Assembly (NCBI RefSeq): GCF_021531695.1
Contig: NZ_JADYUI010000002.1
Coordinates: 124,001 to 188,000, forward strand
Direction of reading: 5' to 3'
DNA from: Roseburia hominis
GTDB taxonomy: Bacteria > Bacillota > Clostridia > Lachnospirales > Lachnospiraceae
Length of the DNA stretch: 64,000 bases
Shown one piece after another: positions 3,269 through 8,851 of the stretch. A program made the translations under genes and the position numbers. Within the stretch, counting starts at the first letter, position 1. The number at the start of each line of letters is the position of its first letter. The notes beneath the pieces are model-generated. The model ran no database searches. It was not told the DNA's origin and was given only the letters and a program-made list of their open reading frames with translations.

Positions 3269-3307
3269 CATAAAAAACCGCCCTGCTGCTACCAACAACA
3301 AGGCGGA

Positions 3308-3360
3308 TGCTCCTGAATGATACAGAAGCCATAAGCAAGCATATTGTATCATTCGGAGCA
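3308..3360. repeat. Inverted repeat upstream of the integrase gene
   Basis: Arms 3308-3324 and 3345-3360 share TGCTCC(T)GAATGATACA in opposite orientation, 16 matched bases with a single bulge and a 20-base loop. It lies about 70 bp before the integrase start. Just upstream (3277-3303) is a CCGCC/GGCGG hairpin that on the minus strand is followed by six T. Together they may form an mRNA structure controlling integrase expression, or a recombinase-related site. Function unknown. Confidence 0.6.
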
Positions 3361-3432
3361 GCCAAACGCAAGCGGAACACCAGTTCCGTGCTAGCTGTTA
3401 TTTTTATACACATTTTTAAGGAGGATGATACT

Positions 3433-4809
3433 ATGGCAACTGTTAGTACAAGGAATCGTAATAAGAACAAGCTGGACAGAAATGGAAAGCCAAAGGCACC
3501 AAACTGGGAATACCGGTTTGACACTGCCCCTATTGACGGCAAGAGGAAACAGGTATGCAAAAGCGGATTTCGGACAAAGGGAGAAGCCGAAGCCGCAGGC
3601 AATAAAGCACTGGCGGAGTATAATAATGCAGGCACTTACTTCTCTCCTTCCGAAATCTCCGTGTCAGATTATCTGGATTACTGGGTGAAAAACTACTGCC
3701 TGCTCAACATATCGGACAGCACACTCGTAGCATACAGAAATATCATCAACAACCATATAAAACCAAGGATAGGCTCATACCGACTAAAAAGCGTTACAAC
3801 CATGATATTACAAGAAATGATAAATAATATATATGTGGAGCGTGGATTTACAAAAAATTTTATGAAAAATATCCTGAAAGTGGTAAAAGGATCCTTTAAA
3901 TATGCAAAGGTTACGGCAAAGATGATCCAGACAAATCCGGCAGAAGATGTTACGCTCCCAAAGACCGCACAAACTTCAGAGAGCGAAGAAATTATCATCT
4001 TAAGTAAATCAGACGTTATACGGATACTAGAACGTTTTAAAAAGAATACTTCACACTACTATGCTATACTAACAGCATATTATACTGGGTTGCGAATCTC
4101 CGAAGTATATGGCCTTACATGGGACTGCATTGATTTTGAAAATAGAACTTTGACAGTCAATAAGATATGCAAGAAAATACCTGTCAATGGCAAGGCATCT
4201 GATTCCACAAAAAGATACGGCACACATGGCAAAGCACTTACACGCTGGTATTTTGGTGCTTGTAAGACACCAACATCCTATCGGACAATATCTATCGGTG
4301 ATACTCTCCTTGCTGCCCTTAAAGAATATAAAGCATGGCAAGAAGATAATGAATTGCGCTACGGTGAATTTTATACGAAATATTACATAAAAGATGAGAC
4401 ATCTGAAACGCATAAAGAAGTGAAGCGGCTGATTCCAATGCAGGATGCCAATTTTGAAATTCCGATGGAAAGAGTATATCCGGTATTTATAAAAGAGGAC
4501 GGAAGCTTTCAGGGAACGGATTCAATGAAATATCCATCCAAAGTTATCAATTACGAACTCGGTATACATTTTAACTTTCATGCGCTGCGACACACTCACG
4601 CCACAATGCTCATAGAAGCTAATGTTCCTGTCAAAGCCGTGTCTGAACGTCTCGGACACTCTAACACAAGGACCACCCTTGAAACCTACGTCCACGTCAC
4701 AGAATCGATGCGTGATGATGCAGTAAACAAATTTGAGACATTCGGTAGCCTTGAAGATGATAAGATTGTCACAATCGGAGAAGCAAAACGCTCTGCAAAG
4801 ACCTCGTGA
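3433..4809 (+). CDS. int: Tyrosine recombinase / integrase
   Basis: A 458-residue site-specific integrase. The start is the ATG at 3433, eight bases after AAGGAGG; longer in-frame versions have no ribosome site. The N-terminal part has the arm-binding AP2-like region (residues about 18-60, WEYRFDTAPIDGKRKQV). A SAM-like core-binding domain covers about 75-165, and the catalytic domain starts near 185. Catalytic residues are visible: Arg in YYTGLRISEV, His-x-x-Arg in HALRHTHAT, His in RLGHSNTRTT, and the nucleophile Tyr in TLETYVHV. All are intact, so the enzyme should be active. It is the last gene of the element and ends about 100 bp from the SEC-C gene. Confidence 0.95.
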   Translation: MATVSTRNRNKNKLDRNGKPKAPNWEYRFDTAPIDGKRKQVCKSGFRTKGEAEAAGNKALAEYNNAGTYFSPSEISVSDYLDYWVKNYCLLNISDSTLVAYRNIINNHIKPRIGSYRLKSVTTMILQEMINNIYVERGFTKNFMKNILKVVKGSFKYAKVTAKMIQTNPAEDVTLPKTAQTSESEEIIILSKSDVIRILERFKKNTSHYYAILTAYYTGLRISEVYGLTWDCIDFENRTLTVNKICKKIPVNGKASDSTKRYGTHGKALTRWYFGACKTPTSYRTISIGDTLLAALKEYKAWQEDNELRYGEFYTKYYIKDETSETHKEVKRLIPMQDANFEIPMERVYPVFIKEDGSFQGTDSMKYPSKVINYELGIHFNFHALRHTHATMLIEANVPVKAVSERLGHSNTRTTLETYVHVTESMRDDAVNKFETFGSLEDDKIVTIGEAKRSAKTS

Positions 4810-4893: not shown

Positions 4894-4960
4894 AACACAA
4901 TATCTGCTTTTATTTTCCGCAACAGAATTTGTATTTTTTACCGCTTCCGCAAGGACATGG
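4894..4960. other. Inferred attachment site in the 3' end of the SEC-C gene
   Basis: The integrase gene ends next to the 3' end of a conserved chromosomal gene, and no tRNA gene is near. Integration into 3' ends, with the core sequence restoring the last codons, is common for tyrosine recombinases. The last codons of the SEC-C gene (metal-binding [13 protein letters not shown]) are highly conserved DNA and a plausible core. The exact core cannot be set without the other end of the element. Confidence 0.45.
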
Positions 4961-5410
4961 ATCGTTACGACCTACTTTTTTACCAACGATAACTGTTCCT
5001 GATTTCTTCTGCTCCAGATATAGTTTCTTTCTGGTAAGTTCATCAAAGATATTGTTCCACATCGGAAGGTTGTATAACCAGTCTGCCTTTGCATCGACCA
5101 TGTTCTTATATAATTTTTCTTTATCAAATGCAAGGTTTACCTTGGTATCTTCTTCCATGGTTTCAATCGGATTCGGCTCAATTAAGCTGTCATTGATACC
5201 ATCCAGAAATCCAGTCATATCCATGATGCTAAGTCCGTATTTATCAGCTAATTCTTTTACCGTTCCCTCTACCTTTTCATCCGGGTTCGTAAGAAGTTTT
5301 TCATATACACCTTTTTCCACTAAAAAATATCTCTGCCAGAACTTTTGAAGTTCTCTTTTATCTGCATGCTGATCATAGGCTACTTTCTGCCATTCTTCTA
5401 ATAAAGCCAT
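4910..5410 (-). CDS. SEC-C motif protein
   Basis: A 166-residue soluble protein. Its final 20 residues are a SEC-C zinc-binding motif ([16 protein letters not shown]), the same motif found at the C-terminus of SecA. The rest is helical and acidic with no motif I know. Such stand-alone proteins are widespread in Clostridia and their function is unknown; zinc and ribosome or SecB-like binding has been suggested for the motif. It has its own promoter (5468-5496) and a terminator at 4856-4893, so it is monocistronic. Its 3' end borders the integrated element. Confidence 0.8.
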
Positions 5411-5467
5411 TTTATATACCCTTCCTTTGTTTCTTCACTTATTATTTGCAAATCATGCATATAGAAT

Positions 5468-5496
5468 AGTATACCTCATAGTTACTAATTTTTCAA
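5468..5496 (-). promoter_or_regulatory. Promoter of the SEC-C gene
   Basis: On the minus strand TTGAAA (5491-5496), a 17-bp spacer and TATACT (5468-5473), about 58 bp before the ATG. Close to the vegetative sigma consensus. Confidence 0.7.
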
Positions 5497-5538
5497 ACTT
5501 TTTTGTATACTTTTTGCAATTTCGTTCATACTATGATT

Positions 5539-5659
5539 AGCCGGTAAAAGCAACGCATACCCCCATCCGTTCTTTTACCGGTTCTACCAAAGATGCGAAT
5601 ACTTATCCTCCCCTATAAGGAAAAAGCTGCCTTTTGTTTCAAAACAAAGGGCAGTTTTT
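5539..5659 (+). ncRNA. Candidate structured small RNA with own terminator
   Basis: A stretch of 120 nt in the gap 5411-5781 folds well on the plus strand. Stem 1 pairs 5539-5550 with 5572-5583 (core CCGGTAAAAG/CTTTTACCGG plus one A-U and one G-U). Its 21-nt loop holds CGCAT (5554-5558), which can pair with ATGCG at 5593-5597 to make a pseudoknot. A small hairpin (CTTAT 5602-5606 / ATAAG 5615-5619) follows. Last is an intrinsic terminator (5627-5654, CTGCC...GGCAG, then five T). The G-U pair in stem 1 is A-C on the other strand, which favours plus-strand transcription. A TATGAT at 5532-5537 may be the -10 box, but no good -35 is visible. I cannot assign a known family. Confidence 0.55.
5621..5659 (+). 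terminator. Intrinsic terminator of the candidate small RNA
   Basis: Stem CTGCCTTTTGTTT (5627-5639) with AAACAAAGGGCAG (5642-5654), one G-U pair, then TTTTT. The minus strand also ends in a T run (complement of AAAAA at 5621-5625), so it could work both ways. Confidence 0.8.
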
Positions 5660-5725
5660 CGTTTTCCGAAAAAAACTGTTACATAAATGCGAAAAAAGCA
5701 GACTTATTTCCTTTGTTTTTGTATA

Positions 5726-5754
5726 TTGACGACCGATAACATTTTCGTTATGAT
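5726..5754 (+). promoter_or_regulatory. Promoter of the small membrane protein gene
   Basis: TTGACG (5726-5731), 17-bp spacer, TATGAT (5749-5754). The spacer contains ATAAC...GTTAT, a short inverted repeat that could be an operator. It shows that the gene at 5782 does not depend on the upstream RNA candidate. Confidence 0.7.
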
Positions 5755-5781
5755 AACAATATCAAAAAGCGAGGTGTTTCC

Positions 5782-6027
5782 ATGAAAAAAGTAAAACAGA
5801 TTCTTGCCATCACAGGCTGCATTCTTTTGGTAGCTTTATATGTATCTACTCTGGTATTTGCCTTAATCGGAAGCGAAAATGCGATGAATTGCCTGCGTGC
5901 TTCCATTTATGCCACAATTGTCGTTCCGGTACTGATCTGGGCATATACTTTTATCTACCGGCTGTTAAAAAATCATTATTCTTATAAAAATAAGGATGAG
6001 GATACAGAAAACGATAAAGCAGACTAA
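5782..6027 (+). CDS. Small two-helix membrane protein
   Basis: An 81-residue protein with two strong hydrophobic segments (about residues 6-30 and 42-62). The tail is charged (KNKDEDTENDKAD) and probably cytoplasmic. GCGAGGTG lies eight bases before the ATG, and a consensus promoter precedes it. I do not recognise the family and propose no function. It stands alone: the Gld-type operon downstream is on the opposite strand and converges with it. Confidence 0.65.
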   Translation: MKKVKQILAITGCILLVALYVSTLVFALIGSENAMNCLRASIYATIVVPVLIWAYTFIYRLLKNHYSYKNKDEDTENDKAD

Positions 6028-6718: not shown

Positions 6719-8851
6719 TTATTTTTTTCTCCTTACTGCCCAGATTCCGATACCGATTCCCAAAAGCACAACAGGAAGCAGAATCACAAATCCAACTGCG
6801 CACAAAATTACAGTCATTGCAGAAACGGTAATTTTTGCTGTATCGTATTCTTTTACCGGAATCACAACTGCTCCATCTGTATCTTCTGAGGAAGTAAAAC
6901 TCTTGATACAGGAGGTAAACAATTTACTGTTATTGCCTGCAACCATCTGATCCGCATTATCCGTAAACATCTCTGCACTGGCAAATACAAACAACTGCGT
7001 GGTATTCTCCTCATCCACTTTCTTTTCTACCTCTACGCCAATCGCAAACGGTCCATCCACATCCCCGTCTTCTTTTTCAATAGAATTCATATTGGCAACA
7101 TCTGTTTTTGAAAATGCACTTGCCTTAGTATTTAACAAATCCGTATAGGTAATTTCACCATCTTCTTCCGTCTGTGGATGTGTAATTCCACGGCAATACG
7201 GAGAAAATACATAATTATTCATAACATCAGAAGTCCACTCACTGTAACCGATTTCCGGAAGCAGATAAAACGGACTCTGATAATATCCGTCAGAATTAGT
7301 TTCCACTACAATTCCCTTTGCAAGAGAAAGGTTATATTCTGCTAAAACTGCTTCAAAATTCGGAAGTTCTTTTTCGGTATAACCGGTCGTAATAAATGCT
7401 TTTCCACCATTCTTCAGATAGTCGGAAAGTTTTGCGGCATCATCCGAAGAAAAGTCTTCTGTCGGACCATTTACAATGATTGCTGCAGCATCTTCCGGAA
7501 CTGTTTCCTCTTTTAAAAGTGTAAGTTGCTTTAACGTAACATTAGCTTTTTCAATCGCATCCGTATAAGCAGAAGATAACGCCGTCTCGCCATGTCCGGT
7601 GATCTGGTAAATCACAGGCATCTCTTCACTGGTTACATAAGAAATGGCACTGGTAATCTGACCTTCGCCGTCATAACCTGTTGTTTCCTGGGAATACGTC
7701 TGATAATTCACGTTTGTCTCATATAAGCTGCTGTAATCGATAACCTTAAAACGCTTTGCACTCTCTACAATAACACTGTTCGCAGAAGGTGCCGTGTCGG
7801 TGTAATTGCTGTAAAACTGTGGCGATACCTTTGGATCCTTATACACTACTTTGATATGGGAAGAAGTATCTTTATAATTTTCCAGCGTCTGATATAGTGT
7901 TTTGTCCTGTGTTTTTAAAGTATCTTTCGCACTTAAAACATAAATCGTAATATCATCTTCCATATCCTTTAAAAAGTTTTTGGTATCTTTTGTCAGGGTA
8001 TAAAGTTTTTCATTTGTCATATCAATAGAAGTCACTTTTTCCGGCAATGCCACAACAGCCAGATTAATCACAACCACAATTGCCAGATTAACAAGAATCA
8101 TGCCGATACTGAACACGCCAAGTTTTAATTTTCCGGTTCCGATACTCCAACGTCTCTTTTGAATCGACTGCACTGTAAAAAACAGGAAGAGGAAAATCAA
8201 AGATAAGTAATACACAATTCCTGTCACATCCAGAATACCGGAGCAGAATTGATCCAGATGTGCCGTTAAATCATAACAACCCAAAATCTTTGTCAAAAGA
8301 TTTCCGCCTGCTGAAATCATATTTGTAATTCCGCCCATCATGTATCCAAGGAACAAAAATACAAAAGTAACAACAGCCGATATTACCTGACTTTCTGTTA
8401 AAGAAGATACAAACGTACCGATTGCAATACACGAAAGTCCATAAAGCCAGAAACCAAGAATGGCTGTATAACTTTCCGGCAATGCTACTTTACCAAACGC
8501 CGATAAGAACACCGGTGCAAGACACATAACAAGTACACAGATTGTAAATATTGCTGCCATGGATAAATATTTTGCCACCACGATTTTTCCGACGGAAACC
8601 GGTGATGTTAAAATAAGCTGATCTGTCTTTCTATTTCGCTCTTCCGCTAAAATCCGCATAGTTAATACCGGAGTCGTAATTAGAAATAAGAATGAAATTG
8701 CAGAAACTGTATAAGAAACATATCCGTACCCGTAAGACATATTATAAACGGTAAAATACAGTCCAAAAATTGCAAGCGTAACGGCAATATATAACCAGCC
8801 GATTACCGATTGAAAATAGGATTTAAATTCTCTTTTAAAAATAGCTAGCAT
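6719..8851 (-). CDS. GldF-GldG fusion: ABC-2 permease plus auxiliary domain
   Basis: A 710-residue fusion. Residues 1-240 form an ABC-2 type permease with six membrane helices (GldF-like, including LAEERNRKTDQLILTSPVSVGKIVVAKY). After one more helix near 255-280, residues about 285-650 form a large extracellular domain of the GldG / ABC_transp_aux type (ITGHGETALS, FITTGYTEKELPNF). A C-terminal helix (about 680-705) and a basic end follow. In Bacteroidetes the two parts are separate proteins involved in gliding; Firmicutes copies have no known gliding role. The gene overlaps the ATPase gene by 7 bp, so they form one transporter. Export of an unknown substrate is inferred. Confidence 0.85.
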   Translation of the reverse strand: MLAIFKREFKSYFQSVIGWLYIAVTLAIFGLYFTVYNMSYGYGYVSYTVSAISFLFLITTPVLTMRILAEERNRKTDQLILTSPVSVGKIVVAKYLSMAAIFTICVLVMCLAPVFLSAFGKVALPESYTAILGFWLYGLSCIAIGTFVSSLTESQVISAVVTFVFLFLGYMMGGITNMISAGGNLLTKILGCYDLTAHLDQFCSGILDVTGIVYYLSLIFLFLFFTVQSIQKRRWSIGTGKLKLGVFSIGMILVNLAIVVVINLAVVALPEKVTSIDMTNEKLYTLTKDTKNFLKDMEDDITIYVLSAKDTLKTQDKTLYQTLENYKDTSSHIKVVYKDPKVSPQFYSNYTDTAPSANSVIVESAKRFKVIDYSSLYETNVNYQTYSQETTGYDGEGQITSAISYVTSEEMPVIYQITGHGETALSSAYTDAIEKANVTLKQLTLLKEETVPEDAAAIIVNGPTEDFSSDDAAKLSDYLKNGGKAFITTGYTEKELPNFEAVLAEYNLSLAKGIVVETNSDGYYQSPFYLLPEIGYSEWTSDVMNNYVFSPYCRGITHPQTEEDGEITYTDLLNTKASAFSKTDVANMNSIEKEDGDVDGPFAIGVEVEKKVDEENTTQLFVFASAEMFTDNADQMVAGNNSKLFTSCIKSFTSSEDTDGAVVIPVKEYDTAKITVSAMTVILCAVGFVILLPVVLLGIGIGIWAVRRKK

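Follow-up and report, generated by a model that had tools for sequence, protein, structure and literature searches.

A candidate forespore small RNA with a conserved C-rich tail beside a SEC-C gene of Roseburia hominis

What does the gap upstream of a SEC-C motif protein gene of Roseburia hominis encode? In the window analysed here, a 64,000-nucleotide (nt) stretch of contig NZ_JADYUI010000002.1 (positions 124,001 to 188,000) in whose positions all coordinates below are given, 371 base pairs (bp) separate the start of the SEC-C gene (5410, minus strand) from that of a plus-strand gene at 5782, in line with the roughly 370 bp reported by an earlier note on this DNA. That note proposed a small RNA (sRNA) in the gap, built from a 12-bp stem, a loop-to-tail pseudoknot, a second hairpin and a terminator. 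Our analysis keeps the sRNA and moves its centre: the conserved part is a 3' C-rich tail, not the pseudoknot, and both this tail and a sigma-G-type promoter had been overlooked. Overall, the locus probably encodes a C-rich sRNA made in the forespore and acting in trans, with CsfG of Bacillus as its nearest counterpart, and this RNA would block Shine-Dalgarno sequences by pairing.

Read on the plus strand, the gap holds, in order, a GTATA-N17-CATACTA motif, a 12-bp stem-loop, a linker, the C-rich tail and a terminator hairpin. The promoter (5505–5533) strictly matches the sigma-G pattern, typical of the forespore, with GTATA at 5505–5509, a 17-nt spacer and CATACTA at 5527–5533. The predicted transcript of ~125 nt would start about 7 nt past the -10 element and end at the terminator, thus covering ~5540–5665 with ends placed to within a few nt. 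Its 5' stem-loop (5539–5583) pairs positions 5539–5550 with 5572–5583, confirming the stem described before, and carries CCCCC in the loop (5560–5564). The linker CTACCAAAGATGC (5584–5596; consensus among aligned members, ACnAAAGAnAAG) leads to the tail GAATACTTATCCTCCCCT, also written GAAUACUUAUCCUCCCCU (5597–5614), which is the proposed pairing region and contains an 11-nt core, ACTTATCCTCC, at 5601–5611. The strong intrinsic terminator claimed previously was found again as a predicted hairpin at 5621–5659, on the basis of sequence and folding; a general scan of the region listed no terminator, and the minus-strand sequence is terminator-like too. Folding of the plus strand from 5535 to 5665 gave -43.6 kcal/mol (z = -8.0, with 0 of 200 shuffles equally good), the stem-loop and the terminator contributing -18.9 and -20.8 kcal/mol when folded separately, while a slightly longer minus-strand piece (5500–5670) gave z = -3.6. 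The stem holds one G.U pair, G5540.U5582, from which the direction of the RNA had been argued. The same-genus copy (L002) bears this out, with A-U at that pair, U.G in place of a U-A pair, and one extra A:U pair inserted.

This copy (92% identity over the hairpin), whose contig stops before the tail, came from a DNA search of 98 relatives, together with short tail-only matches in other genera. Using the 18-nt tail as a pattern, at least 118 stretches were found in public contigs with one genome per species, and one in a viral contig. The matches listed yielded 123 sites, two of which were dropped for lying too near a contig start, leaving 121; since these were picked by the exact pattern, tail invariance in their alignments is by construction. 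Most listed matches belong to Lachnospiraceae or Clostridiales, and the site labelled Paenibacillaceae (L045) is by eye near-identical to two Lacrimispora sites (L057 and L111). Three contigs (L036, L037 and L050) hold two tail copies a few kilobases (kb) apart, on opposite strands in the first two, so the sRNA gene seems to duplicate locally. As a separate observation, further TATCCTCCCC-like repeats follow the tail at L130 (~7137–7220) and L188 (~1365–1410), and L188 also has a self-complementary GGAGGATATATCCTCC near the tail.

To what kind of promoter is the tail attached in these relatives? We scanned the 200 nt upstream of the 121 sites with strict patterns built on the sigma-F and sigma-G consensus. 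A strict match was present at 85 sites (53 sigma-F only, 18 sigma-G only and 14 both). Shuffled sequences gave 0.7 on average (dinucleotide; maximum 3 in 30 runs) or 1.3 (mononucleotide), and the antisense strand had no match. The window promoter matches the sigma-G pattern only, and this match is kept in the same-genus copy despite a diverged spacer. Strict promoters were also present at 20 of 30 loci taken from the 17-mer scan described below, one-mismatch forms and some previously sampled genomes included. In the distinguishing positions the patterns agree with C. difficile, where, as stated in the passage available from PMC3789822, a G before the -10 element marks sigma-F and an A after it marks sigma-G. 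The sequence evidence for sigma-F/sigma-G-type promoters is strong, and it strongly suggests expression in the forespore.

Upstream of the tail, the family divides according to its hairpin. A run of four or more C lies between promoter and tail at 66 of the 121 sites, and in 65 of these it sits within a hairpin loop. At a loose score, the 65 C-loop hairpins compare with 21.6 in shuffled flanks; above a score of 12 there are 61, where shuffles average 1.5 and never exceed 4. By eye, several sites (L048, L061, L080, L086, L098, L126 and similar ones) also share an extra GCGTATGCTC upstream of this hairpin. The C-loop hairpin occurs mainly where the promoter is sigma-G-like: its class includes 28 sigma-G-pattern and 13 sigma-F-only sites, whereas in the class lacking it 44 sites have the sigma-F pattern (4 match sigma-G as well) and none has sigma-G alone. 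In this hairpin-less class, the end of the -10 element is 20–23 nt away from the tail at 34 of the 44 promoter-bearing sites, and minimal members would consist of little more than a ~14 nt leader, the tail and a terminator. Behind the tail, 109 of 117 sites have a terminator-like hairpin; shuffling gives 24.3 on average and 34 at most.

The stem of the C-loop hairpin covaries. Its positions show many Watson-Crick types across sites, in stems that had been selected for pairing, and in an alignment made with MAFFT of 31 of the 65 hairpin sites, hand-picked for short linkers, RNAalifold reported 7 pairs, 7 of 7 with two-sided changes. Each of these 31 members, like the window, has one C-loop hairpin, one tail and one terminator. 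By the refuting condition that the earlier note set, a lack of compensatory changes in related genomes, the first stem stands and the pseudoknot fails. CGCAT (5554–5558) can pair with ATGCG (5593–5597), but the pairing is not conserved: among the 121 sites only the window has CGCAT within 80 nt upstream of the tail, the other two sites with an ATGC linker (L040 and L078) lack it, and loop-linker complementarity across the 65 hairpins is at shuffle level. Moreover, the predicted window fold places the CG of CGCAT within the first hairpin. The second hairpin, CTTAT with ATAAG, is not conserved either, since apart from the window and L078 none of the 121 sites could form it; an alternative 4-bp hairpin in the predicted window fold, UCCU with AGGA, is possible at 12 of 121.

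With a terminator directly 3' of the tail, one could picture a conserved DNA or terminator element that has no function as RNA. We regard this as extremely unlikely, given the promoter placed upstream, the covarying stems, G.U pairs that work on the plus strand only, and the confinement of the exact tail to genomes with sigG. The last point comes from a scan of 397 genomes of the family, presumably the Lachnospiraceae, for a 17-mer of the tail with one mismatch allowed anywhere and the reversed pattern as control. The 17-mer was exact in 91 genomes and present in one-mismatch form only in 33 more (124 in total), and the reversed control was found in 11. Presence of sigG was called from a best TIGR02850 match at E < 1e-50, which is our own split of a two-humped list with no entry above the curated cut-off. 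On this split, 91 of the 264 genomes that have sigG carry the exact tail, and none of the 133 lacking sigG does (p = 1.4e-19 by Fisher's test, a value that overstates independence, the genomes being related). Allowing up to one mismatch, the figures are 117 of 264 versus 7 of 133, those 7 all being one-mismatch forms, and the reversed control gave 9 and 2, respectively.

The tail is constrained, its core especially, because in the 26 sigG genomes with only a one-mismatch form a hand count puts 23 of the changes in the three positions at each end of the 17-mer and 3 within the 11-nt core. Outside the family, the tail was found in 4 of 195 other genomes of the class, all with one mismatch and none with a strict promoter at the locus, against 5 for the reversed control; the covariance model R1 at E up to 0.1 matched 24 of these 195 genomes, about as expected by chance (best E 5.8e-4). 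The genome of the window has one exact tail copy and 9 other sites at three mismatches, versus 9 in the control.

Does the RNA act on a neighbouring gene? Of the 121 sites, 67 have a SEC-C relative no more than 1 kb from the tail, divergent and upstream at 58 and downstream on the same strand at 9; the remaining 54 have none within that distance. Among clusters of proteins flanking the relatives, 83 of 110 are singletons, the SEC-C cluster has 56 members and the next largest has 7. This occurrence in either orientation relative to SEC-C, or with no SEC-C neighbour, argues for an independent gene located 5' of SEC-C at some loci and apart from it at others. A cis-acting leader or attenuator of the neighbour, be it the membrane protein or SEC-C where downstream, would find its cases in the 9 same-strand sites and in the 15 of 123 sites with membrane-protein relatives within 4 kb, though these stand in several orientations. 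It is very unlikely in view of the mostly divergent or missing SEC-C genes, the variable flanking proteins and the terminator-like hairpin that closes the unit at nearly all sites. The earlier note had also thought a leader role for the downstream gene less likely, and the varied orientations and neighbours uphold that judgement. The promoter that it assigned to the downstream gene is weak, a 10/12 sigma-70 match at 5726–5754 of a strength found twice in the region and 1.9 times in shuffles.

A coding peptide was considered as well, since Hungatella-type sites read ATGAGTGAATACTTATCCTCCCC, and was rejected for want of a conserved frame. In the 85 promoter-bearing sites, reading into the tail, 8 have an ATG with a Shine-Dalgarno sequence, 33 another start with none, and 44 no start; the 41 sites having any start divide over the three frames through the tail as 23, 14 and 4.

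The genes that flank the gap are the SEC-C gene (4910–5410, minus strand; Pfam PF02810, NCBIfam PRK05590), a syntenic marker outside the RNA, and a small membrane-protein gene (5782–6027, plus strand) downstream of the sRNA gene. A tyrosine recombinase gene of the phage or integrative and conjugative element type (3307–4809) has its stop ~100 bp away from where the SEC-C gene ends (3'), and a gene judged by eye to be integrase-like is the downstream neighbour at 6 relatives' sRNA loci, so integration may take place in the SEC-C/sRNA region. Elsewhere, the window contains a TwoAYGGAY RNA (RF01731; 29168–29334, plus strand, 118 bits).

Has this RNA been described before? At gathering thresholds, Rfam had no match at the tail sites across the whole window and 18 member loci, and at E up to 10 it returned only sub-threshold matches around the sRNA gene of the window and in 10 member loci. 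Thirteen of these fall within 5100–6000, including the snoRNA snR46 at E = 0.033; a streptococcal sRNA match in the same interval had E = 0.43 and 25.6 bits against a cut-off of 50. We take the matches in this interval as chance. None of the papers searched contains ACTTATCCTCCCC or ACUUAUCCUCCCC, and none of those listed deals with this sRNA, judged by title or opening of the abstract. As far as the Rfam and paper searches show, the family is undescribed, and the same claim in the earlier note is well supported by the Rfam result, the covarying first stem and the SEC-C association.

CsfG of Bacillus is the nearest known system in expression and style. The likeness lies in a sigma-F/sigma-G promoter, strict here at 85 of 121 sites as judged from DNA alone, and in conserved CU-rich segments of a terminal loop and an interhelical region, for which the counterparts here are the C-loop at 65 of 121 sites and the tail, the latter present by selection. 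The strand opposite CsfG was originally reported as an orphan riboswitch in front of ylbH, and the Rfam model RF00516 ('ylbH'), which from its name we take to be linked to CsfG, matched neither the locus in the window nor any of 10 member loci with E as high as 10; its best score in the window's genome was 17.3 bits, on another contig, with a cut-off of 50. CsfG lies between ylbG and ylbH, whereas the window sRNA adjoins SEC-C and small membrane-protein genes, and the host of CsfG belongs to a different family of bacteria. The sRNA thus looks CsfG-like in its working, but membership failed both tests that could be run, model match and gene neighbours; the separation from CsfG is one of these two features, and a distant homology may exist.

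Further comparison draws on passages of PMC3574147, PMC9147052, PMC8216469, PMC12456014, PMC10267692, PMC4409812, PMC7438776, PMC10746234 and PMC5171806. In these passages, CsfG has no known targets according to papers of 2021 and 2022, and regulates sporulation-related mRNAs according to a 2025 introduction, of which the passage names none. RoxS/RsaE and FsrA share with our sRNA the C-rich regions in predicted single-stranded segments, and those of RoxS are stated there to pair with ribosome-binding sites. They differ in control, RoxS being placed under ResDE and FsrA under Fur and the sRNA here having a forespore-type promoter, and RoxS/RsaE differs also in that no known Rfam family matched at the window or the 18 member loci. 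The alphaproteobacterial ar14 (NfeR1) resembles the present family in an identical anti-Shine-Dalgarno motif left unpaired while stems vary, and such motifs of NfeR1 are described as acting by pairing. Unlike it, ar14 has three hairpins, each with CCUCCUCCC, and a sigma-70 promoter. A sub-threshold ar14 match at L048 (338–450; E = 2 and 23.2 bits, with the cut-off at 58.8) is within chance.

How would such an RNA act? The reading we favour is that of a stand-alone plus-strand gene, which sigma-G RNA polymerase would transcribe in the forespore, with sigma-F and/or sigma-G serving in relatives. The transcript would expose unpaired C-rich stretches, chiefly the tail ACUUAUCCUCCCC before the terminator and also the loop of the 5' hairpin. 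Most likely these pair with G-rich Shine-Dalgarno regions in several mRNAs, whose translation would fall as the spore matures. The tail can base-pair with a strong Shine-Dalgarno region and its spacer (GGAGGAUAAGU); together with the analogy to known C-rich sRNAs, this gives moderate support to pairing with ribosome-binding sites. As possible targets we took 85 exact GGAGGATAAGN0-6ATG sites, 80 picked among the places listed for 15 of 45 genomes and 5 from the window's genome; they yielded 70 open reading frames, 56 of them singletons. Recurrent were four lipoproteins in 3 genomes, spoIIAB, also in 3, a MAVIQEL-type protein (3), a DapA-like protein (2) and ABC ATPases (2). The names are our own recognition of the sequences except for spoIIAB, which TIGR01925 confirmed at these places. 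No single target gene recurs across most of the 16 genomes sampled.

Several points weigh against this reading. A strict promoter is missing at 36 of 121 sites, though of the 24 viewed most have near matches by eye; the C-loop hairpin is absent from 56 of 121 sites, and under the loose score such hairpins are not rare in shuffles (21.6 to the 65 found). The relatedness of the genomes weakens the sigG statistic, and the tail at up to one mismatch is missing in 147 of 264 sigG genomes, so sporulation does not generally require the sRNA. Complements of 12 nt of the tail number 10 in the window's genome, one of them the sRNA gene itself, versus 9 for the reversed control. The candidate target spoIIAB was rejected in a comparison of 80 genomes, 45 with and 35 without the sRNA, in which starts were picked by rule and some are doubtful. 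Leaving out one genome of each group (G296, with the sRNA and no match; G038, without it and with a partial match), the mean pairing score was 18.2 in 44 sRNA-bearing genomes and 17.2 in the other 34 (p = 0.47), and an exact GGAGGATAAG near the spoIIAB start occurred in 5 of 44 versus 1 of 34 (p = 0.22).

That the target tests run found no conserved mRNA target would fit a forespore sRNA that binds or titrates a protein, for instance a KH-domain or cold-shock RNA-binding protein, with the tail as its site. This would also account for a tail constraint that exceeds the anti-Shine-Dalgarno stretch (ACUUAU as well as CCUCC) and for minimal members reduced, by our estimate, to leader, tail and terminator. 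Still, we hold it to be unlikely: the C-rich segment of the loop shifts in position and flank yet retains its C run, as redundant pairing regions would, and the related C-rich or anti-Shine-Dalgarno sRNAs in the cited passages work through pairing. A sponge or decoy with the tail as bait for a G-rich RNA, after the manner of RosA with RoxS, is highly improbable; the passages do report that C-rich regions of RoxS and FsrA pair with the sponge RosA, but complementarity to the tail in the sRNA's own genome is at chance, a result obtained with no search for a partner RNA gene.

Within the favoured pairing mechanism, a more specific and rather doubtful proposal is that of an ancient forespore translation silencer of Lachnospiraceae. 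Its strongly constrained 11–17-nt anti-Shine-Dalgarno tail would broadly shut off mRNAs whose ribosome-binding sites are of the GGGGAGGAUAAG type while the spore matures, the minimal sigma-F form being ~70 nt long and the 5' C-loop hairpin an added second seed. If true, this would amount to an RNA regulon specific to sporulation, one that stands apart from the CsfG of Bacillus. Post-transcriptional control within the developing spore is poorly known, and spores help such bacteria to pass between hosts. With its defined tail, defined promoter and many natural variants, minimal ones included, the family lends itself to direct experimental tests, and would represent a second candidate lineage of forespore sRNAs, in an anaerobic and largely gut-dwelling group.
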